Of a stretch of DNA of 64,000 bases, positions 35,627-51,448 are shown in pieces. Made by a program: the position numbers and the translations under genes. Under the pieces are notes generated by a model that did not search any database, was not told the DNA's origin, and worked only from the letters and a program-made list of their open reading frames with translations. The stretch spans positions 193,170 to 257,169 of the forward strand of contig NZ_JABBHF010000001.1 of assembly GCF_012910715.1 (NCBI RefSeq). Reading direction: 5' to 3'. The first letter of the stretch is position 1, and the number at the start of each line of letters is the position of its first letter. This stretch comes from Flavivirga algicola (GTDB taxonomy: Bacteria; Bacteroidota; Bacteroidia; Flavobacteriales; Flavobacteriaceae).

Positions 35627-38077
35627 TTACTCTAAAGTTAAATTTTCAGTTTTAATTTGTGTTCTGGCTGGTTTTAATCCATTACCTGTAACGGTCAAAG
35701 ATATATCACCCGATCTTTTTGTGGACTGAACCAATACAACCAATTTACCACTGAATAATTTCATAGTTGGTTTATGAAACATTTCTAATGATGTTGCATC
35801 GCCATTACATGCGGCTCTAAAAATTCCATCGCCTTTCACTTTAAATTTTAGTTGATTTGTTGCAGTAGGACAAGGATTCCCTTTTTTATCCAATACAGAC
35901 ACTTCCACGTATGAAATATCTTTACCATCTGCTTTAATGGTTTTTCTATCTGGGCTTAAAACTAATCTATATGGTTTCTCGGCAGTTATAATTTCTTTAA
36001 CAGCTTTTTGATTTCCGTCATCATCATAAGCCACGATTTTTAGAGTTCCTGGTTCGTATTTTACATCCATCCACATTAATCGGTATCTATTTTGCGGTGT
36101 GGAAGTGTTCTTTTTTTGAATGCCCATACTTTTTCCATTAATAAAAAGCTCTGCACTATTATAGTTGGTGTATACGAAAACAGGTGTTATTTTTCCTTCT
36201 CTACCATTCCAATTCCAATGTGGCAAAACATGAAGTGTCTCACTTGTCGTATTCCACCTGCTTCTATATAGATAATACCTATCTTTAGGTAAACCTGCTA
36301 AATCTGATATTCCAAAATACGAACTTCTTGAAGGCCATTTTTTATCATAAGGCGTTGGTTCACCTAAATAGTCAAAACCAGTCCAAACAAACTCACCTAT
36401 TACCCATGGTTTGTCATCTTGCAAGACAAAATCTTCATCTGGTACATTAGACCAATTACATGATTCTAAATCGTACGAAGAGCATTGCAAATCATCGTGT
36501 TGCGTCATTTTTCCTTGCACCACAGGAAACTTATAAATGCCTCTTGAACTTATAGTTGAAGCTGTTTCAGATCCCAGAATGAATCCCTGAGGAAATTTTT
36601 CATAAGCTTCTTCATATAAATGTACTCTGTAATTAAGACCTGGAACATCTAAAATAGAACCAAAACCAGATTCCATAACCGATTTCACTTGATCCATTCC
36701 AACAGTCACAGGTCTTGTTGGATCTTCTCTATGAAAAATATCTTGTAAATATTTTGCACGCTTTACACCTTCCGAACCAGCCTGATCAGGCACCTCGTTT
36801 CCAGAACTCCACATGACAATGCAGGGATGATTTCTGGTTGCCTGAACAAGGTTTACCACATCTTTTTCGGCATATGCTTCAAAAAATCTGTTATATCCAT
36901 TTTTTACTTTTGGTTTTGCCCATTCATCAAAGCTTTCTGCCAAAAACATAAAGCCCATTTCATCACAAAGTTCTAATTGCTCCAAAGAAGGCATATTATG
37001 TGAGCTTCTTATAGCATTACACCCCATATCTTTAAGAATGGTTAATTGCCTTTTTAATGCAGCCTTATTTATCGCTGCTCCCAAAGGCCCTAAATCATGG
37101 TGAAGACAGACACCTTTAAACTTTGTTACTTTTCCATTTAAACTAAAACCCGTTTTAGAATCAAATTTGATACTTCTAACTCCAAAGCGTGTTGATTGTT
37201 CATCTTTTAATTGGTTATCTACAAAAACCTGAGACACTGCTGTATATAAATATGGGCTGGTAGGACTCCAGAGGTTAGGGTGCTCAATTTTTATATTTTG
37301 CTCAAACTCATTACCAAAATGTTCTGTGGTACTATTCGAATTAACTTTACTTCCTTTAGCATCAAATATGGTGGTTACCAATTTAATTTGATCTCCAGTA
37401 ACTTTAGTTTTAATAGTTACTTTTGCTTCTTTTTCAGAAATATAAGGTGTCTCAATAAAAGTTCCCCATTGGTCAATACTTTCCCTGTTCTTAACAATTA
37501 GACTAACCTTTCTGTAAATACCAGCTCCTGGATACCAACGTGATGCAAAGGCTTTATTCGATGCTTTAACTGCCAATATATTTTTTCCGTCCAGAATCTT
37601 ATCTGAAATATCAAAATAGAAATAACCGTAGCCATATTTCCACTCTCCAATTTTATGACCGTTTAGAAACACTTCTGGTTCGCTCATAACACCTTCAAAA
37701 AGGAGGATCGCTTTTTTATCTTTTTCAAACTCAGGCACACTAAAGGTTTTTCTATACCATGCTGTACCAATATGCGGCAAAGCCCCTGTTCTGCCTGTTT
37801 TTTCTGTAGCTACTTTTTCCCCATTTTGAAATATAGCCACTGTTTGTTTATCTACATCCTTATTAAAAGGTCCATAAATAGCCCAATCATGTGGCACTGT
37901 TACGGTTTCCCAGTTCCTATCATTAAAATCAACCTGATGAGCATCACTTATATTTCCTTTTTGAAATTTCCAATGCCCTTCTAAATTTTTAACAAACCTA
38001 GCTTGAGCATATGTTAATTGACTCAATATTGTAATTGCAATCATTAAAGCGCATACTACTTTACTATTCATTTTCAT
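35627..38077 (-). CDS. Glycoside hydrolase family 2 (beta-galactosidase-like), copy B
   Basis: This 816-residue secreted enzyme is a paralogue of the neighbouring GH2. I place the start at the ATG at 38077, because the next residues (MKMNSKVVCALMIAITILSQLTYAQA) form a clean signal peptide; an upstream ATG at 38137 would add 20 non-signal residues. Landmarks are VPHDWAIYGPF, SRWYPGAGIYR, GVCLHHDLGPLG, the acid/base Glu428 in SSGNEV and the nucleophile Glu504 in LGSETAS. C-terminal accessory domains follow. It has its own 314-bp gap before the other GH2, so it may be transcribed separately. Two GH2 copies suggest two different linkages or sugars in the target glycan. Confidence 0.93.
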   Translation of the reverse strand: MKMNSKVVCALMIAITILSQLTYAQARFVKNLEGHWKFQKGNISDAHQVDFNDRNWETVTVPHDWAIYGPFNKDVDKQTVAIFQNGEKVATEKTGRTGALPHIGTAWYRKTFSVPEFEKDKKAILLFEGVMSEPEVFLNGHKIGEWKYGYGYFYFDISDKILDGKNILAVKASNKAFASRWYPGAGIYRKVSLIVKNRESIDQWGTFIETPYISEKEAKVTIKTKVTGDQIKLVTTIFDAKGSKVNSNSTTEHFGNEFEQNIKIEHPNLWSPTSPYLYTAVSQVFVDNQLKDEQSTRFGVRSIKFDSKTGFSLNGKVTKFKGVCLHHDLGPLGAAINKAALKRQLTILKDMGCNAIRSSHNMPSLEQLELCDEMGFMFLAESFDEWAKPKVKNGYNRFFEAYAEKDVVNLVQATRNHPCIVMWSSGNEVPDQAGSEGVKRAKYLQDIFHREDPTRPVTVGMDQVKSVMESGFGSILDVPGLNYRVHLYEEAYEKFPQGFILGSETASTISSRGIYKFPVVQGKMTQHDDLQCSSYDLESCNWSNVPDEDFVLQDDKPWVIGEFVWTGFDYLGEPTPYDKKWPSRSSYFGISDLAGLPKDRYYLYRSRWNTTSETLHVLPHWNWNGREGKITPVFVYTNYNSAELFINGKSMGIQKKNTSTPQNRYRLMWMDVKYEPGTLKIVAYDDDGNQKAVKEIITAEKPYRLVLSPDRKTIKADGKDISYVEVSVLDKKGNPCPTATNQLKFKVKGDGIFRAACNGDATSLEMFHKPTMKLFSGKLVVLVQSTKRSGDISLTVTGNGLKPARTQIKTENLTLE

Positions 38078-38406
38078 TGTTTCATTTATTTTTTTAATCC
38101 GAATTTGCCACAAGATTTTCTTGGTTATTATTACCAAACTTTTCTATAAAAATATTGACCACAGCATAGCTTTTAGTACTATATTTTGGAACTTTTATTT
38201 TTTGAATCATATGAGTTATTTATACCTCCAAATATCTATAGAATAAGACATAAAGTTGTTTCTATGGGTAACTTGGATATCTCTCATAGTAAATTATTTT
38301 CGCTTAATAAAACAAGAAGTTTTTATACATCTTCGTTTTAAAACTGAATTTGAAACAAAAAAACAGATAATTAAATGGTAATCAAACCTCTAATACATTT
38401 TTCAAT
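38078..38406. other. Intergenic region upstream of GH2 copy B
   Basis: AT-rich, with no gene or convincing terminator seen. It should contain the promoter of GH2 copy B, but no exact TAnnTTTG box on the minus strand was found. Confidence 0.4.
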
Positions 38407-38805
38407 TCAAAATTCTTTTACTTCACTTTTAGACAAAGGTGATTTGATTTGAAACAGATATTTTTCCAATGACTGTTCTTCTCCATTTATGCTTAAATAA
38501 AATTGTTCCTCGGAAACCCATTGGAGCTGAAAGTTTTTTTCACAGAATAAATTAACACCATCATTATGAATCTCTATTTCTTCCGATAAAAAATAGTCTT
38601 GACCACTTTTGAGAGATTCAATTTTAACTTGAATATATTGTGGCGCGAAAGCGGCTGCAGAAGTTTTATTTATTTCTAAAACAGAAACGATATACCCATT
38701 GTTTGTATAACTACAGATAGTTGTGTTTTTTTCCTGGGAACAACTAAAAATGAAAACAAAAAAAACAAAAGAAATCCTATAAAGTGAAGATTCAAAAGAC
38801 AACAT
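38407..38805 (-). CDS. Small lipoprotein of unknown function
   Basis: I do not recognise this protein. From the ATG at 38805 it has about 132 residues and begins MLSFESSLYRISFVFFVFIFSCSQEK, a signal peptide with a lipobox ending in Cys. A longer reading from 38886 would add 27 residues unlike a signal peptide. The mature part is polar and probably beta-rich (YIVSVLEINKTSAAAFAPQYIQVKIE). It lies just outside the left attachment site of the integrated element, so it is probably resident chromosome. No functional motif is visible. Confidence 0.5.
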   Translation of the reverse strand: MLSFESSLYRISFVFFVFIFSCSQEKNTTICSYTNNGYIVSVLEINKTSAAAFAPQYIQVKIESLKSGQDYFLSEEIEIHNDGVNLFCEKNFQLQWVSEEQFYLSINGEEQSLEKYLFQIKSPLSKSEVKEF

Positions 38806-39161
38806 ATTCAAGCTAATTTTAATCAAGGTTTGGGTTTGGATATGTAAAAATATGAAATCTATAAATAGAATAAAATTTGTAATCAAACTATTGAGAGTAA
38901 TATTTTAGTTCTATTATTTTATGATTTGCTATCAACTCCTTACGTATACCAATAGGATTCTTTTTATAGTTTTCCTTTTTAATTCAATCTGACTTAAAAT
39001 AATATGATTCGGTTAAAGAAAAAAGTTATTGAAAAATTCAAAGAATATTCAAAAAAGACAAGTCTAAATTATTTTGAAACACTTGACTGTATAAATACTT
39101 TTTTTGAAGACACTGTACTTTCGTACGACTTATGGATTCATTTGACATCAAATAAATGTAC
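38806..39161. other. Chromosomal flank left of the integrated element
   Basis: AT-rich sequence with no gene I can support. An open frame at 39004-39210 runs into the tRNA terminator repeat and is treated as chance. Confidence 0.4.
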
Positions 39162-39238
39162 AAAAACAAAAAACACTGAAAATCATATGATTAACAGTGT
39201 TTTGTTGTAACCTATTTCTAGGTTCGTCGGGGTGGCAG
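39162..39238. repeat. Left attachment repeat (attL-type, 77 bp)
   Basis: It is identical to 51309-51385 over 77 bp. It contains the tRNA terminator inverted repeat (AAAACACTG..CAGTGTTTT) and ends in the tRNA 3'-end sequence CGGGGTGGCAG, after which similarity stops. Weaker similarity extends about 20 bp further left. Confidence 0.9.
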
Positions 39239-39740
39239 ACTTAACCACCTCTTTATATCACACTGTTTTTCAGCACTTTATTTCATTATTTTAAAATATG
39301 CACACCTATTTGTACACTAAAACCATAAAAAGAACTTTGAAGATATAATTTGGTCTTCTTTAGTGTCATAAAGGTACAAATTATATAAATATTAATGAGC
39401 CTTACGCAGCATAAGATAAATTATAGTACATTTTACAAATAGGTTTACCCAGTGGATGAAGCTATTTATAACACAGATGGAGCGTTGGCGAAATTATGAT
39501 ATTACGACTAAGATCCATTTATAAAAAATGATAGCTATAGTGTAGTATTATGTAAAATATCCCAGAAACATTGTATTTCATTAGGTTAATTGGAACTTGG
39601 GTCATTAAACTAATTAGCGGTTTGCTTCGTAACATTAAAAAAAAGGAACTTTCAGATTTGCCCTATATGGATGATGGTTCATAATATATCTAATTTATTC
39701 AAGTTTCCTGAGGTCTCATGATTCTTATTTTAATACCACA
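39239..39740. other. Left end of the element, non-coding
   Basis: No gene is supported in these 502 bp. An arm-type site is at 39299-39319. A short open stretch at about 39576-39684 (LIGTWVIKLISGLLRNIKKK..) could be a gene remnant, but I do not recognise it. No clear terminator for the upstream operon is visible. Confidence 0.4.
39299..39319 (+). repeat. Putative integrase arm-type site, left end
   Basis: TGCACACCTATTTGTACAC matches, with few changes, the tandem TTGCACACC motif near the right end, in the same orientation. It lies 61 bp inside the left repeat. Confidence 0.55.
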
Positions 39741-41111
39741 TTAAGACTTGAACTTGAGCTTCTTTTCAATAGCTTCAATCATTACATTGGCAATATCTAG
39801 TCCAGTTGCACTTTCAATACCTTCAAGCCCAGGAGAGGAATTAACCTCTAATAACAAAGGCCCCTTATTAGATCGAATAATATCTACACCAGCGACTGGC
39901 AAATCTAAAATCTTAGCTGCCTTAATAGCTAGCTTACGTTCTTCTGAAGTAATCTTAATTTTAGATGCAGAACCACCTTGATGGATATTTGCTCTAAATT
40001 CTCCTTTAGCAGCTTGCCGCTGCATTGATGCAACCACTTTGCCATTAACTACAAAACAACGTATATCTTGTCCATTTGCTTCTTTAATATATTCTTGAAC
40101 CAAAATATTAGTTTTTACACTCTTAAACGCATTTATTACGCTTTCTGCTGCTTTTGTAGTTTCGGCTAACACAACGCCCTTTCCTTGGGTGCTTTCCAAT
40201 AATTTAATAATAAGTGGAGCACCATTAACCATCTTTATTAAGTCTTTTGTGTCTAACGGAGAATTCGCAAATCCAGTAATTGGTATATGCATATCGTTTT
40301 TAGCAAATAGCTGGGTTGCTAATAACTTATCTCTAGATTGTGTAATAGCATCTGCCGAATTTAAACAATAGGTATTCATAGCGTCAAACTGCCTTAACAA
40401 TGCACATGCATAAAAGGTTACAGATGGTTTTATTCTTGGTATAATTGCATCAAATTCATCAATAACATTGCCACCACGATAGCGTATTTGAGGCTCTTTA
40501 GCATCAAATTTCATATAAGCTTGTTGCACATTAAGAAAAATCATTTCATGTCCTCTTGCTTGTCCTGCTTCAATGAGACGTTTATTACTAAACAACTCTG
40601 GATTGCTTGCCAATAAGGCAATCTTTAATCCAGTCTTTTCTTTTCGAAAAGCCACATACTTTTCATCTAAATCTTCTTGTGAGAATTCAGGCAAAAGGTA
40701 AGTTGTCGATGGATTTACCAAATAGCGATTGTGTAATGCTTCTCTACCTAGTAACATTCTAAATTCCATAGAATCTCGGTTAGCTAGTGTTAATTCAATA
40801 TCAAAAATATCGTCTTCCAAAGTTATTGGGGCTTTTATAACAAGACGTTCTTCAGATATACCCATTGAACTCTTTACAGAACGTTTTGCATGAATCTTTG
40901 CCTCACAAATTATATCTATACTTCTATTGTCTTGAAGAGGATTGACATGAAAGCGCACCCACTCTTCAGTATCTTTATAGAAAACTTTAATCTTATTTGC
41001 TTGTATAGATGATGTTTTGGCACCTGAATCTACACGTGCTTTTATTGCAGAAATACCAAAGGCTTCAAATGAACACCATTCTTCACTTCCAATTATTTTT
41101 AAATCGTTCAA
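39741..41111 (-). CDS. Fused RimB-like retropepsin and RimK-like ATP-grasp amino-acid ligase
   Basis: This protein of about 456 residues has an N-terminal aspartic-protease-like domain of the ATP-dependent zinc protease/RimB type ([12 protein letters not shown] near the start, MLLGREAL later). It is followed by a RimK-type ATP-grasp ligase ([74 protein letters not shown]). RimK enzymes add glutamate or similar residues to a carboxyl group, classically on ribosomal protein S6. I favour the TTG at 41111, six bases after the DUF155 stop, because homologues begin at the KIIGSEEWC region. An ATG at 41183 would overlap the conserved end of DUF155 by 67 bp. It is last in the operon. Confidence 0.85.
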
Positions 41112-41116
41112 TGTAT

Positions 41117-41905
41117 TTATTTTATAATTTTTAAAATGACTAAATCTATTACCTCTATAACTATTAAAATGATAATAATCCATTCTAACCTACTACTTTC
41201 TTTATGGAACATTATGTCTTTAAATAGGTCAAGGTTTTCTTTTACAATATTTACCTGTTGATTGATAATTTGGTATCTATCTTTTAAATCGAATTTTTTC
41301 TTTAATTCTGAATTAAGCTTATTGAGGTTTTTATCATCCCAAGCGGCATCATGGGAGTCGAAAATATATAGGTTTTCAGAAATCTTATTTTTCACATTTA
41401 ACACTTTGCCTATATAGCATTTTAATTTTTTTCCACCAATATTTAACTTACCATGATTCTCTAGATAACTTGTATGTCTTCTAGTATCTTCTAATAACTG
41501 TTCTGCAATACTAGCGTAATAATCTAGTGCCAAAGAATGCGATAGATTAAGCATCACTAAACGAAGCTTTTCTGCATCATTGTCTGGTAAGGTTACGTTA
41601 TCAAAATCTGTACTAAAACAGTCTCCCCCTGTAACTATTTCAAGTGTTTCAGAGATTACTGAATTAATAACAACATCTCCTTTTAGGGTTATATTAATTT
41701 TCTTTTTTAGAACACTAATTTCAGTTGAAGTAAAATTATAAACACAGATAATCCCATATTTAAATGCATATAAATATTTGCCTTGGTCTAAACAAAAAAA
41801 TATTTCGTCGTTATCTGAAAATAAAGGGCGTTGATTAAAAATCGTTTTTAATGATTTAATATCAATATATTCTGCTACTTGAATAGCAATAGCTGTTGTT
41901 TTCAT
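41117..41905 (-). CDS. RMND1/Sif2-like DUF155 protein
   Basis: This 262-residue protein (start ATG at 41905, four bases after the VOC stop) fits the DUF155 family. It has an N-terminal soluble domain ([21 protein letters not shown]-like [14 protein letters not shown]) and a helical middle ([32 protein letters not shown]). The hallmark C-terminus is [18 protein letters not shown], a single membrane anchor. Eukaryotic members such as RMND1 act in mitochondrial translation; the bacterial role is unknown. It is next to a RimK-type ligase, itself linked to ribosomal protein modification, so a translation-related role is plausible inference. Confidence 0.85.
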
Positions 41906-41909
41906 TGTT

Positions 41910-42323
41910 TTATGAGGTAAAAACCTCAGTCTTGTCTTTAAAACTTTTAAACTCAATCATATACCCATTAGGATCTGTGATAAAAAAGGAAAGATGTTCT
42001 CCAACTTTATTTTCCATAAAAGTAGACTCAGTAGTTACTTCTTGGTTAGACCGTAATAGTTTTCTATATAATGTACCCCAGGTTTCTATACCGATAATAA
42101 CACCAAAGTGAAAGGAAGGTAGAACGTTATCATCAAGTTTGTAGTTTTTAAATTTAAAGTTAAAAGTTCCTGATTCGGTAAAAGTAAGCTGATTGTTGTA
42201 TAAATTTATATCAATCCATTTATCTGTTTGTCTACCTTGAGTAGCACCTAAAGTATCTATATAAAAAGTTTTTGTAACTTCTATACTCTCACAAGGCAAT
42301 GCTAAGTGAAATTGTGCTTTCAT
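41910..42323 (-). CDS. VOC (glyoxalase/dioxygenase superfamily) protein
   Basis: This 137-residue protein starts FHLALPCESIEVTKTFYIDTLGA and ends FFITDPNGYMIEFKSF, which are the paired beta-alpha-beta-beta-beta modules of the vicinal-oxygen-chelate fold. His6 and a C-terminal Glu (IEF) are in the places of usual metal ligands, and a central His (SFHFGV) is present. The actual reaction (lyase, dioxygenase or antibiotic-binding) cannot be inferred. Spacing is 10 bp from the NUDIX gene and 4 bp to the DUF155 gene, firmly within the operon. Confidence 0.85.
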   Translation of the reverse strand: MKAQFHLALPCESIEVTKTFYIDTLGATQGRQTDKWIDINLYNNQLTFTESGTFNFKFKNYKLDDNVLPSFHFGVIIGIETWGTLYRKLLRSNQEVTTESTFMENKVGEHLSFFITDPNGYMIEFKSFKDKTEVFTS

Positions 42324-42333
42324 AATTTCTGTT

Positions 42334-42747
42334 TTAATTTATTTGTTTCCTAAACTGGTCAAAATATAATGTTATTGCACTTCGGTCGTCTTTATCTAGA
42401 TATTCAAGTGCATCATACCAAGGAATCCATAATACTTTTTTAAACTTATGAAGCTCTAATACTTCAATATTTTTAAGAGGTTTTATTATGATAAAGTAAT
42501 GCTTATATATTTCTTGTCGTTCCTTGTTGGTGTTCTTTCTTGACAGAAAATAAGTCAAATCTTTCTTTTTTAACTTTAATCCTATTTCTTCAAAAGTTTC
42601 TCTTATTAATGATTGATAGTCTGTTTCATTTTTCTTCTTCACTCCACCAGCAAGAGAGTATTTTTTCTTAACACCTATCTTTTCAAGAACAAGAATCTTG
42701 TCCTTTTTAACTGCAATAAGTCTAGATTTATCAATTTTGTTTAACAT
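42334..42747 (-). CDS. NUDIX hydrolase
   Basis: This 137-residue protein carries a complete NUDIX box: GGVKKKNETDYQSLIRETFEEIGL fits GX5EX7REUXEEXGU in two adjacent parts, starting at GGV and ending EEIGL. It should hydrolyse a nucleoside diphosphate linked to another moiety, with Mg2+ bound by the box glutamates. The substrate is unknown. It starts two bases after the small acidic protein's stop codon, so translation is probably coupled. Adenylated products of ATP-grasp or polyamine chemistry are conceivable substrates, but that is speculation. Confidence 0.9.
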   Translation of the reverse strand: MLNKIDKSRLIAVKKDKILVLEKIGVKKKYSLAGGVKKKNETDYQSLIRETFEEIGLKLKKKDLTYFLSRKNTNKERQEIYKHYFIIIKPLKNIEVLELHKFKKVLWIPWYDALEYLDKDDRSAITLYFDQFRKQIN

Positions 42748-42749
42748 GA

Positions 42750-43028
42750 TTAATCTAAACCCTCTTCATTTAAAGCATCAATATCTAAACTTTCATTAGT
42801 AGAATTATCATCTTCTTCATATTCTTCCATCGCTTTCACTAATTTCGTACCAATTTTTACAAGATAAATAGTATCATCAGTTCTAACCTCTACCGCTTCA
42901 ATAAGTTCATTATTAGCATTTCTGAATGAAATAATATCGTCATCATCGTATCCATCTGGAAATTTCTCAACTAATAAATTTAAAATATCTTCATTCAGTT
43001 TTTGGTAATCTACAATTTTGCGTATCAT
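42750..43028 (-). CDS. Small acidic conserved protein of unknown function
   Basis: This 92-residue protein (MIRKIVDYQKLNEDILNLLVEKFPDGYDDDDIISF...) is strongly acidic, with a C-terminal run of Glu/Asp (MEEYEEDDN). From memory, similar proteins occur in flavobacteria, sometimes labelled 'DNA primase' without basis. It has no signal peptide or membrane segment. It sits between the deoxyhypusine synthase-like gene (12 bp) and the NUDIX gene (2 bp). A small acidic protein in this setting could be a carrier, inhibitor or modification target, but nothing in the sequence proves this. Confidence 0.7.
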   Translation of the reverse strand: MIRKIVDYQKLNEDILNLLVEKFPDGYDDDDIISFRNANNELIEAVEVRTDDTIYLVKIGTKLVKAMEEYEEDDNSTNESLDIDALNEEGLD

Positions 43029-43039
43029 TTCTTTTAGTG

Positions 43040-44014
43040 TTACATGCCTAACAGATAGGCAAAGATTAATGGAGCAACAATGGTAGCATCACTCTCTATT
43101 ATAAATTTTGGTGTATTAATATCTAATTTTCCCCACGTAATCTTTTCATTTGGCACAGCTCCTGAATACGAACCATAACTTGTAGTAGAATCACTTATTT
43201 GGCAGAAATAACTCCAAAAAGGTGTATCTGTGCGCTCCATATCTTGATATAGCATTGGTACTACACATATAGGAAAATCTCCAGCAATCCCCCCTCCAAT
43301 TTGAAAGAAACCTATTCCTTTTTCAGAGTTATCACTGTACCAATCTGCAAGAAAGGTCATATACTCGATTCCAGATTTCATCGTACTGGCTTTAAGCTCT
43401 CTTTTAAGAACATAACTTGCAAAGATATTCCCCATAGTACTATCTTCCCATCCTGGACAAATTATAGGTAGATTCTTTTCTGCTGCTGCATACATCCAAG
43501 AATCTTTTAAATCAATTTCATAGTAAGCTTCTAATACTCCAGATAAAAGTAACTTATACATATATTCATGAGGCAAGTATCGTTCGCCTTTATCATTAGC
43601 CTCTTTCCAGATGGCATAAATGTGTATTTGCAATCTTCTAAATGCTTCTTCTTCTGGAATGCAAGTATCTGTAACACGGTTAAGTCCTTGTTCCAATAAA
43701 TCCCATTCTTCTTCTGGTGTTAAGTCTCTGTAGTCAGGAATACGTTTATAATGAGAATGTGCCACTAAATTCATAATGTCTTCTTCTAAATTTGCTCCTG
43801 TACAAGAAATGATTTGCACCTTGTCTTGTCGTATCATTTCTGCAAAAATCTTTCCTATTTCTGCTGTACTCATTGCTCCTGCCAAAGACACTAACATCTT
43901 TGAGCCTTTATTTAATTGCTCTTCATAAGATTTTGCTGCATCAACAACAGTAGCAGCATTGAAATGTAAATAATATGTTTCTATAAAATTTGAAATTGCA
44001 CCTTTAGTAGTCAT
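43040..44014 (-). CDS. Deoxyhypusine synthase-family protein
   Basis: This 324-residue protein has the NAD-binding fold of deoxyhypusine synthase: SLAGAMSTAEIGKIFAEMI, SCTGANLEEDI, ICPGWEDSTMGNIFASYVL and FFQIGGGIAGDF. The C-terminal SGAVPNEKITWGK contains Lys296, aligned by motif with the catalytic lysine that forms the aminobutyl imine. Bacteria lack eIF5A, so the bacterial enzymes probably transfer aminobutyl groups between amines (homospermidine-synthase-like) or act on another acceptor. It overlaps the agmatinase gene by 11 bp, which implies coupled expression and supports a role downstream of putrescine. Confidence 0.92.
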   Translation of the reverse strand: MTTKGAISNFIETYYLHFNAATVVDAAKSYEEQLNKGSKMLVSLAGAMSTAEIGKIFAEMIRQDKVQIISCTGANLEEDIMNLVAHSHYKRIPDYRDLTPEEEWDLLEQGLNRVTDTCIPEEEAFRRLQIHIYAIWKEANDKGERYLPHEYMYKLLLSGVLEAYYEIDLKDSWMYAAAEKNLPIICPGWEDSTMGNIFASYVLKRELKASTMKSGIEYMTFLADWYSDNSEKGIGFFQIGGGIAGDFPICVVPMLYQDMERTDTPFWSYFCQISDSTTSYGSYSGAVPNEKITWGKLDINTPKFIIESDATIVAPLIFAYLLGM

Positions 44015-44942
44015 CTTCTTCTTTGAATTTTGATAAATTATTAGTTAATGATCTATCATTATAAGCACTGTCGTAATCGTCTTCTATTGTATCGTTTTGA
44101 AACTTATAGCTTAACATTTTGTAATACAATTTAGCAGCAAGAAAGTCTGAAGACTTATCTATTTCATTAGGGCATAATTCAACAATATCAAACCCAACAA
44201 CATTTTTTTCTGTAAATACTTGCTTTAGAAAATCCATGGTTTCATACCAAAGCAATCCCCCTGGTTCTGGTGTACCTGTACTTGGTAAAACAGAAGGGTC
44301 GAAGGCATCTAAATCGAATGTTATAAATACATTCTCTGTCATTTGATCTATGGCAGAATCCATCCAAGAATCGTCTATTGCCATATCGTGAGCAAAATAA
44401 GTTTTATCCAAATTCATAATAGATTTCTCTTTTATGTCCATAGAACGAATACCTACTTGAATTAAATTGGTGTTTTGACTCGCTTCATAAACTGCACAAG
44501 CATGATTACAAGAACTACCCTCATAACTTTTCCGTAAGTCTGCATGTGCATCAATATGCAAAACCGTTAAGCTTGGAAACATTTCGTTAAATGCTCTAAT
44601 TGTTCCAATAGATATAGAATGTTCACCGCCAAAAACAGTCACAAATTTATTTTTGTTAATGTATTTTTTCGTTACCTCATGTACTGCATCAACCATGTTT
44701 TCTGGAGATGTATTTTCTGTAACGGCATCAGCTAAGTAAATACCTTGTTTATAAATTTCTGAATCCGTCTCAATATCATAAAGTTCCATGTTTTCAGATG
44801 CTTCTAAAAAGGCTTTTGGTCCTTTATCTGCTCCTTTTTGCCATGTACTTGTTCCATCATAGGGAACAGGAATTAATACAATCTTTGCATGTTCTAATTT
44901 TGCAAATTCTTCTGGTATTCCAGCGTAAGTTTTAGTTTCCAT
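44004..44942 (-). CDS. speB: Agmatinase (arginase/ureohydrolase family)
   Basis: This 312-residue enzyme has all six manganese ligands of the ureohydrolase family: His108 (GGEHS), Asp131, His133 and Asp135 (DAHAD), and Asp210 and Asp212 (TFDLDAFDPS). It should convert agmatine to putrescine and urea; arginase or another guanidine hydrolase is less likely, because an arginine decarboxylase gene lies immediately upstream with a 2-bp gap. The extra C-terminal tail (NDTIEDDYDSAYNDRS..) is acidic. Its end overlaps the start of the deoxyhypusine synthase-like gene, completing an arginine-agmatine-putrescine-aminobutyl path. Confidence 0.93.
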   Translation of the reverse strand: METKTYAGIPEEFAKLEHAKIVLIPVPYDGTSTWQKGADKGPKAFLEASENMELYDIETDSEIYKQGIYLADAVTENTSPENMVDAVHEVTKKYINKNKFVTVFGGEHSISIGTIRAFNEMFPSLTVLHIDAHADLRKSYEGSSCNHACAVYEASQNTNLIQVGIRSMDIKEKSIMNLDKTYFAHDMAIDDSWMDSAIDQMTENVFITFDLDAFDPSVLPSTGTPEPGGLLWYETMDFLKQVFTEKNVVGFDIVELCPNEIDKSSDFLAAKLYYKMLSYKFQNDTIEDDYDSAYNDRSLTNNLSKFKEEDDY

Positions 44943-44944
44943 TT

Positions 44945-46405
44945 TTATTTATCTGCTAATTGTAATTCAGCACTTGTATTTAAATATTGAATTGTATGTG
45001 TTTCCGATTTTTTATCATAGCCTAAAATTTCGAGTAACTCTTGACTTTTTTGTTGTTCTCTAAATAACTGCGTTGAGATGTTTCCATGTTCATCTTTATC
45101 AATTAAAACATGTTTGGGGGCAGGGATTAAACAATGTTGCAATCCTCCATAACCACCTATAGATTCTTGATAAGCTCCTATATTGAAAAAACCTATATAT
45201 AATGGTTTGTCTTTGTTATATTTTGGCAAATAGATAGCGTTCATGTGTTGCTCGCTATTATAATAATCGTCACTATCACAGGTTAGGCCTCCAAGTAAAA
45301 CACGCTCGTAAGAATCATTCCAACGGTTTATAGGTAACATGATAAAGCGTTTATTAATCGCCCAAGTATCTGGAAGCGTAGTGATAAATGAAGAGTTTAT
45401 CATATTCCATTTTTCCCTATCATTTTGTTGTTTTTGATAAAGCACTTCATAAATTGCCCCACCACTCTCTCCAACTGTAAAACTTCCAAATTCTGTGAAA
45501 ATATTAGGTACATCAACACCTTCTTCTTCACAGGTAAGCTTAATTTGATTGATGATTTCATCTATGATGTATTCATAATCAAAATCAAAAGCTAATGAGT
45601 TTTTAATAGGGAAACCACCTCCAATATTTAAACTGTTTAGAGATGGGCATATTTTTTTTAAACTTGTATAAACTTTAAGACATTTTAAAAGCTCATTCCA
45701 ATAATAAGCATTATCTCTAATACCCGTGTTAATAAAGAAGTGAAGCATTTTAAGCTGTACTTTCGGATTGTCTTTAATTTGCTTGTTATAAAAAGGCACG
45801 ATGTTTTTATAACCAATTCCTAACCGAGAGGTGTAAAACTCAAATTTGGGTTCTTCTTCCGAAGCTATACGAATACCAATATTAAAATTGTCTTCGATTT
45901 CGTTAGAGAGCAAATCTATTTCTTCGTAGTTATCAATAATTGGAATACAATTTTGATGACCATTATTGATTAACCTCGCAATATTTGTTATGTATTGAGC
46001 ACGCTTGAAACCATTACTAATAACAAACGTATTGTCATTTATTTTTCCTTCTTCTTTTAAAGTTTCAATAATATCTATATCAAAAGCCGAAGAGGTTTCA
46101 ATATGTATGTCATTCTTCAAAGCTTCATTTAAAACATGTTTAAAATGTGAACTTTTTGTACAATAGCAATAGTTATAGTTACCATTGTAGTCATGTTTTT
46201 TAATAGCATTGTTAAACCATACTTTCGACTTATTTATATTATCGGAAATTTTAGGTAAGTATGTAAATTTTAAAGGTGCCCCATAAGTTTCAACCAATTT
46301 ATTTAGGTCTATATCATGGAAAAGTAAGTGGTCTTTCTCAAGAACGAATTCTTCTTGAGGAAAATCAAAAGTTTGATTGATTAAATCAATATATTTTGTA
46401 TTCAT
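44945..46405 (-). CDS. speA: Biosynthetic arginine decarboxylase (PLP, alanine-racemase fold)
   Basis: This 486-residue enzyme is of the compact Bacteroidota type. It starts KYIDLINQTFDFPQEEF and has the PLP lysine Lys84 in YCTKSSHF. Also visible are HFFINTGIRD, the glycine-rich phosphate site NIGGGFP, TEFGSFTVGESG, and the C-terminal GGLTCDSDD with the catalytic Cys/Asp and YIGFFNIGAYQ. It would make agmatine from arginine. It is first of the eight-gene operon in the integrated element. Because similar genes are core in flavobacteria, this may be a second copy or a relocated resident gene. A potentially structured leader lies upstream at 46567-46627. Confidence 0.93.
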   Translation of the reverse strand: MNTKYIDLINQTFDFPQEEFVLEKDHLLFHDIDLNKLVETYGAPLKFTYLPKISDNINKSKVWFNNAIKKHDYNGNYNYCYCTKSSHFKHVLNEALKNDIHIETSSAFDIDIIETLKEEGKINDNTFVISNGFKRAQYITNIARLINNGHQNCIPIIDNYEEIDLLSNEIEDNFNIGIRIASEEEPKFEFYTSRLGIGYKNIVPFYNKQIKDNPKVQLKMLHFFINTGIRDNAYYWNELLKCLKVYTSLKKICPSLNSLNIGGGFPIKNSLAFDFDYEYIIDEIINQIKLTCEEEGVDVPNIFTEFGSFTVGESGGAIYEVLYQKQQNDREKWNMINSSFITTLPDTWAINKRFIMLPINRWNDSYERVLLGGLTCDSDDYYNSEQHMNAIYLPKYNKDKPLYIGFFNIGAYQESIGGYGGLQHCLIPAPKHVLIDKDEHGNISTQLFREQQKSQELLEILGYDKKSETHTIQYLNTSAELQLADK

Positions 46406-46566
46406 TATAAATGTGATAAAAAGTTATTAAAACACGAAAGCAGGTACACCTTCCTAAAAAGAATTAATAACTTAAAATCAAATCATAATTTGATATTGTA
46501 TTTTGGGGACAAAACACAATTTATACCGTGTAGACACGATTTTTACTACGGAAGTTAGCTTTAAAT

Positions 46567-46627
46567 TTCGGTTACCTACTCCGTAAGCTTCTTTTGAATA
46601 TGACTTCCTAATTTTCAAAAGACCGAA
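46567..46627 (-). promoter_or_regulatory. Candidate structured leader upstream of speA
   Basis: Nested perfect inverted repeats are present: outer TTCGGT (46567-46572) with ACCGAA (46622-46627), and inner CTTTTGAA (46591-46598) with TTCAAAAG (46614-46621). ACTTCC in the inner loop (46603-46608) could alternatively pair with GGAAGT at 46550-46555. It lies about 160-220 nt before the speA ATG. No known riboswitch class is recognised. Confidence 0.35.
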
Positions 46628-47153
46628 CTTATAAACATGTTTCAATTTGTTCAGCTAAAAGCCCTTATGATAAAAGCTTTAGTGTTACAAATTAAATATA
46701 AAAAATTGAATAATTGTATTTTTTTAATTTATTTCCTTTCGACACACATTCCACTACTATCCTATCATCGCATAGTAAAAAGAGTATTCCTTTAATATTA
46801 TAGAGAAAACATTGTAGTTTAAACTTCGTCTTTACCAAGTCAAAAGCACATAACGCAAAACATTATAATACAAATACATTGTTATAATAATTTGCTTTAT
46901 ATTCTAACGAAGAAAACCCAGTACTTTTGATTCTGAAATATGCTCTCGAATACTTACGTGTCCATAAGAACACACAAATATATTATAGCAAGTTACTGGA
47001 GAAACCACAAACAATCTTTGTTTAATTAATTAGTTTTTTTTACAATTATAAAGGGTTTTCCCTAAAGAAAAGATTATTATTAATAGTTATCTATTCTAAT
47101 AAAAAACCTCTATGAAAAGCGTGTTCACTAAACTAAGGGGGAAAAGCAAGAGG

Positions 47154-47182
47154 GTAACACGCAGTGGCGTGTTACTGTTTTT
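47154..47182 (+). terminator. Hairpin terminator within the element
   Basis: GTAACACGC (47154-47162), loop AGTG and GCGTGTTAC (47167-47175) form a perfect 9-bp stem followed by TGTTTTTT. No gene on the plus strand ends here, so it may end a small transcript starting upstream. Confidence 0.6.
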
Positions 47183-47226
47183 TATTTAGTTGATTTTCAG
47201 CGCATTGAAAATATGTGCGTTTTGTT

Positions 47227-47301
47227 TTTTAGTAATTTTTACTTTAAAAAGTCTGGTATCCCAGTAAAATCAATGATTTTTTAAAGTAAAAATTACTAAA
47301 A
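47227..47301. repeat. 24-bp perfect inverted repeat with 27-nt spacer
   Basis: The arms at 47227-47250 and 47278-47301 are exact complements, and the spacer contains CTGG-TATC-CCAG. Both outer ends are AT-rich. It could form a long hairpin in RNA or a cruciform in DNA. Confidence 0.8.
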
Positions 47302-48119
47302 TCCTAAAATTTGATGCCATTTGTTCTTTTTTGAAAATGGAAATATCTTCTCAAAATATCGAAGACTACCGCACTCGCTTTGGGCGAGCTTGCTGCATTT
47401 TTAAACTTATGGATTCTCATCGCTCAATCCAGCCTCTAAATCCATAACTTTAAAAACGATTATTCTTTTCCCTTTTAAAACACTCTTTTTTATTTTGCGA
47501 CCTTCGGGAGCAAACAAGAATGTGCCCACAGACACACATCTTGAATTCCTACCCAATGGGCATAGAACTCTAATTTTAGATACACCTTACCTTGAATGAT
47601 GATTATCTGATTTTGAAATATTTTCTTTTAAGATACTTTTCATTATTTACAGCAAACTTTTTCAATGTTTACTGGTGTTCCGAAGGGTTTTACAGTAAAC
47701 TTTTATGTTTAAACTTATTATACAATCAATAAAAACCCATTATTTACAAGGCTTCACGAAGCAAATGGAAACTGTAGCATCGCCTTTGCGCGCTACCCTC
47801 TTGCTATTCATTTCCGCCCGCACACGGTCGAAAACAAATACACAGACAAGGTATTGGCTTAAAGAACGTAATCTGAGTAAAAGAGAGATTTTAAGAAAAA
47901 GATAAGACGGGTTTTATTAAATGTGCAGTTCTTAAATTATTTGTGGTTAAAATATTATGGGGAATTCAAAATAATATGAAGGCAGATTAAATGAGTATTT
48001 AGAATCCTTGATAAATAGTAACGCTTATATTTTATATGATATCAGTGTTATTTCTTTCAGGGATCGTTTTAACATTTAAACCCTAATTTTTCGTTCAATT
48101 CCTTTCCATGTAAAACAAG

Positions 48120-48647
48120 CTATCTCATTTTTAAAAAGCCAAGAATCTTTCTTAATTTGTGATAGGCTACTTTTTTATGATCCTTGACCGTATTGATAGA
48201 TATGGATAATTGCTCTGCGATCTCATTATTTGTAAAATCTTTTATACTCAATCTAATAACTTGAGCGGCTTTTTCTGGTAGTCCATTGATGGCGTTTTCT
48301 ATAACAACGGTAGTTTCTATAACTACGGCTTCAGACATATAGAATTCTTCAGTGTCATAAGCCTCTAACTTTGCAAGCTCATAACACTCTGTAACCCTAT
48401 AGGTTTTACTTTTTAAATAATTGAGGCATTTATTTTTTACGGCTTTATAAAAAAATCCAGTAGCATGGGTTTCATTTTCAAAAACGGTTTTAGATTCCCA
48501 TACTTTAATAAAAACATCCTGAACGATGTCTTTTGAAGTATCTAAATCACTAAGATATTTATATGCAAACACACAAAGTTGCGGATACAAGCCTTCAAAA
48601 TAGCTCTTATACTCCCTATGAGTGAAGTCTTTTCTATCCCCGCTCAT
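48120..48647 (-). CDS. ECF-type RNA polymerase sigma factor
   Basis: This 175-residue sigma factor has region 2 (YPQLCVFAYKYLSDLDTSKDIVQDVFIKVWE) and region 4 (LPEKAAQVIRLSIKDFTNNEIAEQLSISINTVKDHKKVAYHKLRKIL). Its form is that of the Bacteroidota family that normally works with a FecR-type anti-sigma factor and a SusC-like receptor. Neither partner is adjacent. It lies 18 bp downstream of a 110-residue protein of unknown function on the same strand and is probably co-transcribed with it. It is inside the integrated element and may control element genes. Confidence 0.9.
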   Translation of the reverse strand: MSGDRKDFTHREYKSYFEGLYPQLCVFAYKYLSDLDTSKDIVQDVFIKVWESKTVFENETHATGFFYKAVKNKCLNYLKSKTYRVTECYELAKLEAYDTEEFYMSEAVVIETTVVIENAINGLPEKAAQVIRLSIKDFTNNEIAEQLSISINTVKDHKKVAYHKLRKILGFLKMR

Positions 48648-48665
48648 AATTTTATTTTTTTTAAG

Positions 48666-48998
48666 CTACCAACCAGCATTTACAACCTCATTTGCTTTAG
48701 TGCACAACACTAGATTGGTGAAAATCATATCAACAGGAATCAATTCCCTATTGTTAATATAGTCCTTAGGAAAAAAGGCAAAGAACCCATCAAACTTTTT
48801 ATTAAATAAAAGATACGTACCCGAATTACAAGATAGACCAGTGTATATAATACCAATAACCTTTAAGCCCAATTTGCAATGTACTTTAACTTCATTAGTT
48901 AGGTTAGATCTGTCAAGCAACTCGATTAAGAGAGGTTCAGCGACATAATATAGACGAGTCAAGCTATATGGAATAGTTGGAGTTTTAGAATTAGACAT
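48666..48998 (-). CDS. Hypothetical protein, 110 residues, paired with ECF sigma factor
   Basis: I do not recognise this protein. It is soluble-looking, has no signal peptide, and contains LTRLYYVAEPLLIELLDRSNLTNEVKVHCKLGLKVIGIIYTG and a C-terminal PKDYINNRELIPVDMIFTNLVLC. The gene ends 18 bp before the sigma-factor gene, so the two are probably one transcript. A regulatory partner of the sigma factor is possible but unsupported by motif. Its start is about 175 nt downstream of the candidate structured RNA on the same strand. Confidence 0.6.
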   Translation of the reverse strand: MSNSKTPTIPYSLTRLYYVAEPLLIELLDRSNLTNEVKVHCKLGLKVIGIIYTGLSCNSGTYLLFNKKFDGFFAFFPKDYINNRELIPVDMIFTNLVLCTKANEVVNAGW

Positions 48999-49173
48999 GA
49001 AATAGATTTTAAGATTTTACCAGTAAACATATAACTGCGTACCAAAAGGCAGCAGGAAATAAAATAGTATTCCTATTTTAGATTAAATTATACGTATTTT
49101 ATAATGATCAATAGAGTTGAAGTTGGTTTGAAAAATGAGATAAATAAATCTCAAAACCTTAATGTATAGACAC

Positions 49174-49302
49174 AAAAAAGCGTGAAACTCAACCTACCTG
49201 TTAGGGGTACTGGTATACCTTGCACCGATAAGAGAGCTCACGCCTAGGTCGCGAGCTAATCTACTTATCATCTCAGGTGCAAAATTACCAGTTTTCTAAC
49301 AG
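49174..49302 (-). ncRNA. Candidate structured RNA with pseudoknot-like pairing and U-tract
   Basis: Five nested helices are visible: CTGTTAG/CTAACAG (49198-49204 with 49296-49302), ACTGGTA/TACCAGT (49209-49215 with 49286-49292), TTGCACC/GGTGCAA (49220-49226 with 49276-49282), GATAAG/CTTATC (49227-49232 with 49264-49269) and AGCTC/GAGCT (49235-49239 with 49253-49257). On the minus strand the apical GCGTGAGCTC can also pair with GAGTTTCACGC (49190-49180), just before six U residues (49179-49174). With the -7 box at 49347-49354, a transcript of about 165 nt is expected. It could instead be an attenuator for the downstream gene or a DNA recombination site. Confidence 0.55.
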
Positions 49303-49346
49303 AGAATCAAAGCGACAGCTTCAAATATTTTTAATACGAAGAATCG

Positions 49347-49354
49347 CAAATATA
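49347..49354 (-). promoter_or_regulatory. Candidate -7 box for the structured RNA
   Basis: CAAATATA reads TATATTTG on the minus strand, an exact TAnnTTTG match followed by C. Transcription would begin near 49340, about 40 nt before the first helix. The -33 element is unclear. Confidence 0.45.
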
Positions 49355-49441
49355 TATAATCAAAAACAAACTTAATAAAAAAAAATCAAACTGGCATTAT
49401 CGTGACAATTAAAATAAAAAAAATATTTTTCTTTTGTCTTT

Positions 49442-49768
49442 ATGTCAAAGAGTAAAAATAAAAAGAGTCATAAACAAGATGAATCTGGAAAAGTTTTTTT
49501 GTTGGATAAATTTGTTTGCAACTATATTACAACTGAATGGCTTTCCGACGGAGCTTCCAATCTTTCTCACAGCAAAAAATACGGTGTACATCGACACATT
49601 TTAACTAAAATAAAAAAGGAAGATGGGTATCGAATTCCTTTATCTTCGCTTGCAATAATGTGCTTCTACAAGAAAATAGCTCTATCCGATTTTTTCAAAA
49701 TGATTGAAAATAAATATGGTTCAAAAATTAATGATGATTTTGTAGTTAATACAAAAAAAGAAGAATAA
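49442..49768 (+). CDS. Small DNA-binding-like protein of the element
   Basis: This 108-residue protein is basic at the N-terminus (MSKSKNKKSHKQDESGK). Its helical middle (YITTEWLSDGASNLSHSKKYGVHRHILTKIKK, then IPLSSLAIMCFYKKIALSDFFKMIENKYG) looks like an XRE-like helix-turn-helix in which a short 'start-stop' segment precedes the last helix. Proteins of this size and style often lie near Bacteroidota tyrosine integrases and may act as element repressors or excision factors; this is inference. It is convergent with the integrase and ends in a palindromic terminator. Confidence 0.6.
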   Translation: MSKSKNKKSHKQDESGKVFLLDKFVCNYITTEWLSDGASNLSHSKKYGVHRHILTKIKKEDGYRIPLSSLAIMCFYKKIALSDFFKMIENKYGSKINDDFVVNTKKEE

Positions 49769-49798
49769 ACATCTTTTTTATTTAGAACCTGTCACCAT

Positions 49799-49825
49799 TC
49801 ATTAGTTTAAACTAATGATGTTTTT
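49799..49825 (+). terminator. Palindromic terminator after the small DNA-binding-like gene
   Basis: A perfect 20-bp palindrome (TCATTAGTTT and its complement, 49799-49818) is followed by TGTTTTT. It lies 30 bp past the stop codon. Confidence 0.7.
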
Positions 49826-49890
49826 ACCATCCTATAAACCCTACCTCATCAATCTCTAATATTGTATTGAAAGTAAACTCTATTTGAGTC

Positions 49891-51147
49891 TTAAAAATTG
49901 GCTTGCTCTTGGGATTGTTGCTTCTTGCTTTCAAATCGCATAAGTAGGTTTTGTATATCCTCACTTATTTTACTTTCTACTACCCTAGCATAAATTTGAG
50001 TTGTTGAGAGTTTGGTATGCCCTAAAAGTTTGGATACCGTTTCAATAGGCACTCCATTGGATAGCATCACGGTTGTTGCAAATGTATGTCGAGCAACATG
50101 AAAAGAAATGTTTTTTTGGATACCGCAAGCTTTAGCAATTTCTTTTAAATAGGTATTGGTCTTTTGATTGGAGCTTATCGGTAACAAATTGGTTATAAAA
50201 TCTTTTCCTTGGATAGCTCTATACTTTTCAAGTATTGCCCATGCTTTTGGGAGTATTGGCACTTTTACTTGCTCGTCCGTTTTTTCTCGTTTGGTATATA
50301 TCCAATTATTGTTGTCTATACCCTTAACAATATTGCTTTCCGTAAGTTCTTTAACATCTACATAGGATAACCCAGTATAACATGAAAACACAAAACAATC
50401 TTTGATTTTTTGTAAGCGCTCACTTGTAAAGTCTGTAGCTTCCAATAGATGCAATTCTCTTTCTGTTAAGTATTGCCTGTCGTATTTGTTATATTTTAAT
50501 TGAAATTGGCTAAATGGGTTTTTATGCATCCATTCTAGTTTGATGGCTAGGTTTATCATTTTTTTAAAACGCTCCAAATGTTTCATAACGCCATTATTAG
50601 ATAACATCAATTGTTTTTTGGTGTTTTTATAGGTTCTTAAATAGTGCTCGAAATCTGTGATAAATCTAAAATTCAATTGTTTTAGATAGATGTCTTTTAC
50701 TCTTTTCTTCTTCTGCAAGAACTTTTGTAAATAGCGTTCTGTGGTATAATAATTTTTCATCGTTCCCGCTTTGAGAACGTGGATCATATTCTCATTATGG
50801 TAAGTGATTAATTCTTTTAAGGTCTTACTGTTGTCATCCTCTCCCAAGTATCGCGACTTAATGGCATCCGAGGATATGATTTTATCTTCTTCTAAAAGGG
50901 CTTTATGACACTTTAGTAGTTTGTTATACACCTCATCTAAATAGGCGTTTAAAGCTCTTATTTTTTCGGTGTTTCCCCTACCCTTTGTTTTTGTACTGTC
51001 CCATTCATTTTGGTCAATACTTCTTTTCAAACTCATTTCTGCTCGTTTACCTTTTACGGTAATACGAACATAGATAGAAAGATGATTGAGATTGCTTCTA
51101 GATTTTCTAGTAAAGAAAATAACGGCAAAAGTGCTTTTTGTTTTCAT
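49891..51147 (-). CDS. Tyrosine recombinase/integrase (IntDOT-like)
   Basis: This 418-residue integrase has an N-terminal arm-binding domain (residues 1-100), a SAM-like core-binding domain (about 105-210) and a catalytic domain. Visible catalytic residues are Lys288, His350 and Arg353 (FHVARHTFA), His377 (LLGHT) and Tyr386 (TTQIYARV). The position of the first conserved Arg holds Ser261 (YTGLSYVDV), as in the Bacteroides CTnDOT integrase. It lies about 225 bp from the tRNA-Pro 3' end, within the element, and should recombine the 77-bp repeat. Length and order are typical of Bacteroidota mobile elements. Confidence 0.95.
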   Translation of the reverse strand: MKTKSTFAVIFFTRKSRSNLNHLSIYVRITVKGKRAEMSLKRSIDQNEWDSTKTKGRGNTEKIRALNAYLDEVYNKLLKCHKALLEEDKIISSDAIKSRYLGEDDNSKTLKELITYHNENMIHVLKAGTMKNYYTTERYLQKFLQKKKRVKDIYLKQLNFRFITDFEHYLRTYKNTKKQLMLSNNGVMKHLERFKKMINLAIKLEWMHKNPFSQFQLKYNKYDRQYLTERELHLLEATDFTSERLQKIKDCFVFSCYTGLSYVDVKELTESNIVKGIDNNNWIYTKREKTDEQVKVPILPKAWAILEKYRAIQGKDFITNLLPISSNQKTNTYLKEIAKACGIQKNISFHVARHTFATTVMLSNGVPIETVSKLLGHTKLSTTQIYARVVESKISEDIQNLLMRFESKKQQSQEQANF

Positions 51148-51262: not shown

Positions 51263-51308
51263 TTTATATGGTTTTAGATGCTTTTATTTGATATCAAATA
51301 AAATGTGT

Positions 51309-51350
51309 AAAAACAAAAAACACTGAAAATCATATGATTAACAGTGTTTT
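51309..51350 (-). terminator. Terminator of the tRNA-Ser/tRNA-Pro transcript
   Basis: On the minus strand AAAACACTG (51350-51342) pairs with CAGTGTTTT (51325-51317), with an inner imperfect palindrome, followed by a T-rich run (to 51309). It is carried within the attachment repeat. Confidence 0.75.
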
Positions 51351-51385
51351 GTTGTAACCTATTTCTAGGTTCGTCGGGGTGGCAG
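51309..51385. repeat. Right attachment repeat (attR-type, 77 bp)
   Basis: It is identical to 39162-39238. It covers the terminator hairpin downstream of tRNA-Pro and the last 12 nt of the tRNA, so the tRNA remains intact after insertion. Confidence 0.9.
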
Positions 51386-51448
51386 GATTCGAACCTGCGA
51401 CCTCCGCGTCCCAAACGCGGCGCGATAACCGGGCTACGCTACACCCCG
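51374..51448 (-). tRNA. tRNA-Pro (anticodon TGG)
   Basis: The 75-nt minus-strand sequence folds into a cloverleaf: acceptor CGGGGTG/CACCCCG, anticodon stem CCGCG/CGCGG around loop TTTGGGA, and T-arm with GGTTCGAATCC. The anticodon is TGG. CCA is not encoded. Its 3' end is the insertion site of the element. Confidence 0.97.

Follow-up and report, generated by a model that had tools for sequence, protein, structure and literature searches.

What does a tightly packed gene set that joins polyamine synthesis to a RimK-type ligase and a DUF155 protein make, how is it controlled, and how did it come to lie in this genome? The set is found in a 64,000-nucleotide stretch of Flavivirga algicola contig NZ_JABBHF010000001.1, the whole of which is called the window here. 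According to the list of open reading frames (ORFs) of the window and to Pfam and NCBIfam, eight minus-strand genes fill positions 39741-46405 as one operon. The reading that we moderately favour from the sequence is that the operon makes homospermidine, is regulated through a leader and includes a modular set of accessory genes, and that in this genome it is carried on an element integrated at a tRNA-Pro gene (Table 1).

The operon, its probable product and the linkage of its halves

All eight genes listed in an earlier note on this DNA are present, in the families it named: pyridoxal phosphate (PLP) decarboxylase/SpeA, Arginase/agmatinase, DS (the deoxyhypusine synthase, DHS, family), NUDIX, Glyoxalase, DUF155 and Zn_protease with RimK. 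Neither Pfam nor NCBIfam has a family that matches the 92-amino-acid acidic protein. The DUF155 domain scored 89.3 bits against a Pfam cut-off of 27, and RimK 376.5 bits against a cut-off of 331 (NCBIfam PRK10446). The tight packing described in that note was also recovered, with intergenic gaps between -11 and 11 nt when inner start codons are assumed for DUF155 (ATG, 41905) and RimB-RimK (TTG, 41111), a choice suggested by relatives.

The first three genes suggest a complete route, in which SpeA would convert arginine to agmatine, SpeB would convert agmatine to putrescine, and the DHS-like SpeY would condense putrescine to homospermidine. The DHS-like protein carries the DS domain (PF01916, 147.4 bits against 27) and keeps the WGK motif in alignment with solved DHS chains (7cmc); the lysine of this motif is presumably the catalytic lysine of DHS. 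Two points weigh against this assignment: the decarboxylase and the DHS-like protein both fall below the NCBIfam equivalog cut-offs, and the latter scored 104.8 against 450 with the homospermidine biosynthesis protein model and likewise stayed below the cut-offs of the deoxyhypusine synthase models. The operon product is nevertheless very probably homospermidine. A DHS-like SpeY makes homospermidine according to the available part of PMC9992855, and sym-homospermidine is given as the major polyamine of two Flavobacterium species in that of PMC8570120. The earlier note proposed an unusual polyamine, but the product need not be exotic, since homospermidine made by SpeY is known from these sources.

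In the SpeY pathway as described in the available text of PMC9992855, an arginine decarboxylase, a putrescine route and a DHS-like synthase are likewise clustered, but agmatine deiminase and an amidohydrolase stand there in place of the agmatinase found here. The present operon also differs by its additional acidic, VOC, NUDIX, DUF155 and RimB-RimK genes. A literature search by titles and abstract starts, with subscription papers mostly outside its coverage, found nothing that joins agmatinase, arginine decarboxylase, DHS and Flavobacterium, nothing that joins DUF155, RMND1 and bacteria, and no paper on a polyamine-sensing leader in Bacteroidota.

The linkage of the two halves was surveyed in 199 Flavobacteriaceae genomes. 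DHS was found in 133 and DUF155 in 37, and all 37 are among the 133, an overlap with a chance of about 5e-8 if the genomes were independent, although they are related. Of the other 36 DUF155 loci, 32 have a same-strand DHS no more than 7 kb away, and the acidic gene is found in 28, VOC in 19 and RimB-RimK in 6. A further set of 80 named DUF155 loci, the best of 391, contained DHS in 68, the acidic gene in 66 and RimB-RimK in 35. The fused RimB-RimK follows a similar pattern. Among the matches listed, fusions with at least 69% identity to that of the window occur in 23 of the 199 genomes, 21 of them beside DHS (in one case about 6 kb away and on the other strand), and none of the 16 fusions at 60-67% identity lies beside DHS. 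These two counts exclude a partial fusion in G150 (74%, residues 134-479) and two distant ones, of which that of G037 (45%) is beside DHS and that of G130 (43%) is not.

Gene order and same-strand packing recur in many genera, in agreement with the one-operon view of the earlier note, and the link it proposed between the NUDIX-to-RimK half (DUF155, RimB-RimK) and speA-speB-dhs holds elsewhere. We are confident, as far as comparison of loci can tell, of the linkage of the halves together with the mobility discussed below. Several observations weigh against a strict linkage. No DHS is visible in 12 of the 80 named loci, several of which are only 5-7 kb long, and these 12 include all five titled outside Flavobacteriaceae (Schleiferiaceae, Cryomorphaceae, Flavihumibacter, Sphingobacteriales and Mucilaginibacter). 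Moreover, three of the 36 family loci lack a same-strand DHS within 7 kb, and one more is a fragment.

It is possible, if unlikely, that the second half forms a module of its own, which uses the operon promoter and has no functional tie to polyamines. DUF155, VOC, NUDIX and RimB-RimK are gained and lost independently, and the 40 loci that we fetched from the 96 DHS-positive, DUF155-negative genomes mostly keep the core (speA in 39, speB in 38), with the acidic gene in 33, VOC in 15 and RimB-RimK in 4. However, the survey contained no DUF155-positive genome without DHS, and among the matches listed one RimB-RimK subfamily tracks DHS.

Further members of such operons were observed. A GNAT-nitrilase fusion recurs (24 ORFs, for example L040:6737-8266) and occupies the place of DUF155 before RimB-RimK in L075, L078, L080, L097, L134 and L136. 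In three loci the gene after RimB-RimK encodes a SET-domain protein (for example L037:7411-7995). According to the available part of PMC9992855, no SpeY was found in virus or phage genomes. We noted 19 putatively viral IMG/VR contigs (L289-L307) that encode a DHS-like SpeY at 52-79% identity; the other operon genes are absent from them save for distant agmatinase-like matches in two.

The leader upstream of speA

A structured RNA lies upstream of speA and overlaps a short upstream open reading frame (uORF). With speA present in 142 of the loci searched, blastn matched the leader in 85, and model R1 recovered 36 of the remaining 57, one of them at E 0.032 only. Genome-wide, the leader model matched 96 of the 199 family genomes, 94 of which hold DHS (the others being G019 and G170), and 6 of 394 genomes of the phylum, all Flavobacteriaceae; both searches used filters that lose weak matches. 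Rfam scans of window positions 38000-52000, L040, L214 and L067, with E values up to 1 allowed, gave no match over the leader.

The fold is supported by covariation. RNAalifold predicted 18 pairs from 54 sequences, 16 of them with a change on both sides that keeps the pair. For the five-helix pseudoknotted fold, 95.2% of cells were paired in the 54 sequences, and 57 cells were changed on both sides, where shuffles gave 10.4. The larger alignment has 97 rows fitted to R1, whose structure has no pseudoknot, with two of 100 sources left out. In it, 90.7% of cells were paired and 27 of 30 pairs were changed on both sides; cells changed on both sides numbered 171 against 47.7 in shuffles, none of 500 shuffles was as high and the slid controls were all lower, yet the leader sequences are related, so that the shuffle and Fisher figures overstate significance. 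The pseudoknot pairs contributed 20 cells changed on both sides even though they lie outside the alignment model. The leader is very likely cis-regulatory.

The uORF frame is conserved as well. Its start column in the 97 leaders reads TTG in 56, ATG in 33 and GTG in 7, one being unreadable, and is never CTG. The 96 readable frames have 55 codons in 43 cases and 50-60 in 90, and end in FRI (25), IQV (14), IRI (14), IQI (10) or other residues (33). The penultimate codon specifies Arg in 53 (CGN 49, AGR 4; six codons in all) and Gln in 29. The stop is TGA in 85 of the 96, TAA in 8 and TAG in 3, and TGA still accounts for 28 of 38 after clustering at 85% identity, while clustered ORFs of the fetched loci end in TGA in 109 of 1,153 cases. 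Stops were found in none of 54 rows in the uORF frame, and in 54 and 50 of the 54 rows in the other two frames. In the 43 uORFs that share the length of 55 codons, the codon-position entropies over codons 33-55 were 1.04/0.97/1.48. A purely protein-coding leader and a purely RNA leader were both considered and rejected, as each accounts for a part only: the entropies are flat in the structured half and show a third-position excess in the 3' part.

We see an even chance that the uORF encodes an arrest peptide, a sensor of polyamine state resembling SpeFL or TnaC. The amount of a pathway metabolite (arginine, putrescine or homospermidine) would determine whether a ribosome translating it pauses at the conserved C-terminal [I/F]-[R/Q]-[I/V]-UGA, and the pause would alter the fold of the overlapping RNA and hence the expression of speA. 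Arginine or a polyamine is suggested as ligand because of the genes controlled.

Two known systems can be likened to this one by description. In both, according to the available parts of the sources, what becomes of the downstream message depends on a ribosome that halts within a short leader gene or at its end (PMC6386406, PMC8429421). In Salmonella and other gamma-proteobacteria, SpeFL/orf34 is likewise a short uORF within a structured leader, upstream of speF, which encodes a polyamine-making decarboxylase (PMC6386406, available part), and SpeFL is an arrest peptide that senses L-ornithine and blocks release mediated by release factor 1 (RF1; PMC8429421, likewise). The present leader differs in belonging to another phylum, in preceding an arginine decarboxylase gene, and in its length of about 55 codons, its UGA preference and its pseudoknotted fold. 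TnaC likewise has Arg before its last residue and a UGA stop, and its Arg23-Pro24 hinder release by RF2 according to the same part of PMC8429421. TnaC, however, has 24 residues, senses tryptophan and ends in Pro, whereas the uORF described here mostly ends in Ile or Val and overlaps a covarying RNA.

The alternative of a metabolite-binding riboswitch, in which the open frame would be incidental or secondary, seems to us improbable but deserves weight. It would fit the compact covarying fold with its pseudoknot, the flat entropies of the structured half and the two copies (L278, L279) that retain the fold and not the C-terminus of the peptide. It would not explain the absence of CTG from the start column, the narrow length range, the third-position entropy excess in the 3' part of the uORF, the use of six codons for the penultimate Arg or the strong UGA preference. 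For the arrest-peptide reading, four observations are unfavourable. No leader was detected by blastn, R1 or R2 in 21 of the 142 speA loci, some of which are cut close to speA, and one of the 97 rows, the L280 copy, lacks a readable start. The flat entropies are what RNA constraint alone would give. The uORFs of L278 and L279, where the leader precedes the acidic gene, have 76 and 80 codons and lack the C-terminal motif, so the motif is not needed everywhere. The leader is a probable regulator, compact and testable, that is found in many genera.

Other features of the leaders were noted. In L154, L280 and L281 the leader precedes small genes with apparent signal peptides (judged by eye). The L281 gene is followed (3278-6676) by genes for a 475-amino-acid protein that NCBIfam does not match, an ATP-grasp protein resembling glutathione synthase and a deacylase-like protein; 475-amino-acid proteins that look alike by eye occur in the DHS clusters of L067, L069 and L108. 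In L040 the speA leader is preceded at a short distance by a Flavo-1 RNA (3026-3105; RF01705, 43.4 bits against a gathering score of 42). A leader match upstream of the DUF155 copies of L164 and L165 (E 0.0048) had no clear uORF and was not used. A Bacteroidetes-type promoter box beside the leader, present in 10 of 97 rows and 2 of 39 cluster representatives against a shuffle rate of 4.7%, was too weak to use, and no shared attenuator hairpin between uORF and speA was seen by eye in the printed leaders.

Accessory proteins

The acidic protein, VOC/NUDIX, DUF155 and RimB-RimK may handle the polyamine or respond to it. The mechanism that we put forward for them, as part of the favoured reading though at low odds, is that RimK lengthens and RimB trims glutamate on an acidic partner in a polyamine-dependent way. 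Against it, L046 holds RimB-RimK and DUF155 without an acidic gene, and the tails of the acidic proteins do not differ clearly with and without RimB-RimK. Ligation of a polyamine or an amino acid by RimK, as suggested in the earlier note, is likewise a hypothesis. The acidic family matched solved structures by sequence at E 0.14 or weaker only, and DUF155 has no solved relative by sequence. The RMND1/DUF155 family is linked to human mitochondrial disease. The present protein shares the DUF155 domain and a hydrophobic C-terminus with the RMND1/Sif2-Sif3 family but is bacterial and encoded within a polyamine operon, which gives this unexplained family a bacterial genetic context. RimB-RimK has both its domains in common with the RimK S6 glutamate ligase system (presumably the one named RimABK). 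Here they are fused, linked to the operon and additional to the stand-alone RimK of the same genome, from which the operon sets this polyamine-linked form apart.

It is rather unlikely, in our estimate, that the leader represents a new sensor class, with a covarying pseudoknotted RNA and a UGA-ending arrest-peptide gene in one stretch sensing polyamine state. Its regulon would comprise the homospermidine pathway together with small acidic proteins, both cytosolic and exported ones, acting as a polyamine buffer whose charge RimB-RimK would tune by adding or removing glutamate. As a separate attempt, the acidic protein was examined as a RimK substrate by its C-terminal tails, and this was rejected: four tails of proteins adjacent to RimB-RimK end in EEE, and terminal Glu is frequent elsewhere too, so these tails give the idea no support.

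A bacterial counterpart of hypusination, in which the acidic protein would be the substrate of the DHS-like enzyme, is very improbable: the protein is a frequent DHS neighbour (33 of the 40 DHS loci and 28 of the 36 DUF155 loci above) and has invariant lysines in 26 sequences, one of them in YLVK, but its gene is absent from 7 of the 40 DHS loci and persists together with the leader in G019, which has no DHS match.

The element at tRNA-Pro and the native locus

The operon lies within a 12.2-kb element (39154-51385) bounded by an 85-nt direct repeat of 98% identity, both copies of which align with the site in six congeners. The tRNA-Pro region was matched in all 12 genomes of the genus, and an integrase match was found near it at 7 of the 10 congener sites fetched. 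In congener G203 the integrase, the sigma factor and both small ORFs recur at 94-100% identity, but DHS is absent. The congener integrases and the G203 module suggest a hot spot at this site, with the operon as cargo. Twelve ORFs of at least 80 amino acids lie between the repeats, and no transfer gene was recognised among them: nine have Pfam families unrelated to transfer, and the acidic protein and two ORFs have none. Partial matches to the query, at 60-80%, were found in twelve plasmid records, but no record covers 80% of it. A defence system was considered and rejected; PADLOC, run on ten proteins without the integrase and the sigma factor, gave one weak NUDIX match (PDC-S07, E 5.5e-5).

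Within the genus, DHS is found in 4 of 12 genomes, this one included. In a quick tree of 89 joined SpeA-SpeB-DHS rows, these four were placed apart and supported branches force at least three changes of genus label. By this measure, the DHS operons of the congeners come from several sources. Neptunitalea chrysea NBRC 110019 has the same eight genes in the same order, at 90.7% DNA identity over 7,132 bp, and the 6.7 kb beside its operon has just two matches in the present genome (77% and 66%). The Neptunitalea block (L150) lies between direct repeats of 1,394 bp (99.9%, at 2838-4231 and 11695-13088), which suggests that in that genome, as well, it was moved in one piece. The 3' portion of a large ORF falls within these repeats; we take this ORF to resemble Cas13b.

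In many relatives, the chromosomal site of the operon is between a pseudouridine-synthase-like gene, presumably RluB-like, and what we take to be a membrane glycosyltransferase-like gene. In the corresponding native locus of this genome (L278), the two flank genes enclose, in order, a small gene whose product has an apparent signal peptide, the leader RNA and a paralogue of the acidic gene, with no speA, speB or dhs. Congener G019 shows the same layout on the stretch fetched. A second speA-speB-dhs copy, which the earlier note had proposed to look for, is absent: the genome (5.02 Mb in 37 contigs) has one DHS and one speA, so that the element carries the sole set, plus a stand-alone RimK at 49% identity. 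On this comparison the native copy of the operon was lost and its leader and acidic gene were kept; a core metabolic pathway would thus have been lost and then regained on a mobile element.

The mobility claimed earlier is upheld by the 85-nt repeats, the tRNA-Pro, the integrase, the patchy DHS of the congeners and the several sources of their operons. The contrary case, that the operon is plain core chromosome, fails here, where it lies in an element, and holds in many relatives. That the integrase landed next to an old, immobile chromosomal operon is hardly credible: the chromosomal site in many relatives would fit it, as would the lack of a clean empty site (none of the ten fetched congener loci joins tRNA-Pro to this left flank within the 20 kb examined), but the operon lies inside the repeat pair, the native locus of this genome is without it, and it is nearer to that of Neptunitalea than to those of congeners.

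Table 1. Features of the operon, its leader and the surrounding element, in window coordinates.
Feature	Position	Strand	Basis
attL-like copy of tRNA-Pro 3' end and flank	39154..39238	.	85-nt direct repeat, 98%; aligned with site in six congeners
RimB-RimK fusion: retropepsin-like domain and ATP-grasp glutamate ligase	39741..41183	-	Pfam/NCBIfam, PDB relatives, operon-linked subfamily; start near 41111 suggested by relatives
DUF155/RMND1-like protein, conserved hydrophobic C-terminus	41117..41956	-	Pfam, alignment; likely start 41905
VOC/glyoxalase-fold protein	41910..42323	-	Pfam
NUDIX hydrolase	42334..42747	-	Pfam
Small acidic protein, 92 amino acids, frequent DHS neighbour	42750..43028	-	Family alignment, neighbourhood counts
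DHS-like SpeY, putative homospermidine synthase	43040..44014	-	Pfam DS; WGK motif aligned with solved DHS
Agmatinase (SpeB)	44004..44942	-	TIGR01230 above cut-off
Arginine decarboxylase, SpeA-like, short form	44945..46405	-	Pfam, NCBIfam
uORF, 55 codons, TTG start, UGA stop, 72 nt before speA	46478..46645	-	Conserved frame in leader alignment
Structured leader RNA, 115 nt, five helices including pseudoknot	46546..46660	-	Covariation, covariance-model matches
ECF sigma factor, integrase-side module	48120..48647	-	Pfam; 95% in G203 at same tRNA site, operon absent there
110-amino-acid ORF, integrase-side module	48666..48998	-	No Pfam match
108-amino-acid ORF, integrase-side module	49442..49768	+	No Pfam match
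Tyrosine integrase	49891..51147	-	Pfam; adjoins right repeat
attR-like repeat overlapping tRNA-Pro 3' end	51301..51385	.	Direct repeat; aligned with six congener sites
tRNA-Pro(TGG), integration target	51373..51448	-	tRNA at right repeat

To the left of the element, two adjacent large ORFs (window positions 32847-38137), which we take to resemble beta-galactosidases, share a 108-nt stretch that is 74% identical.

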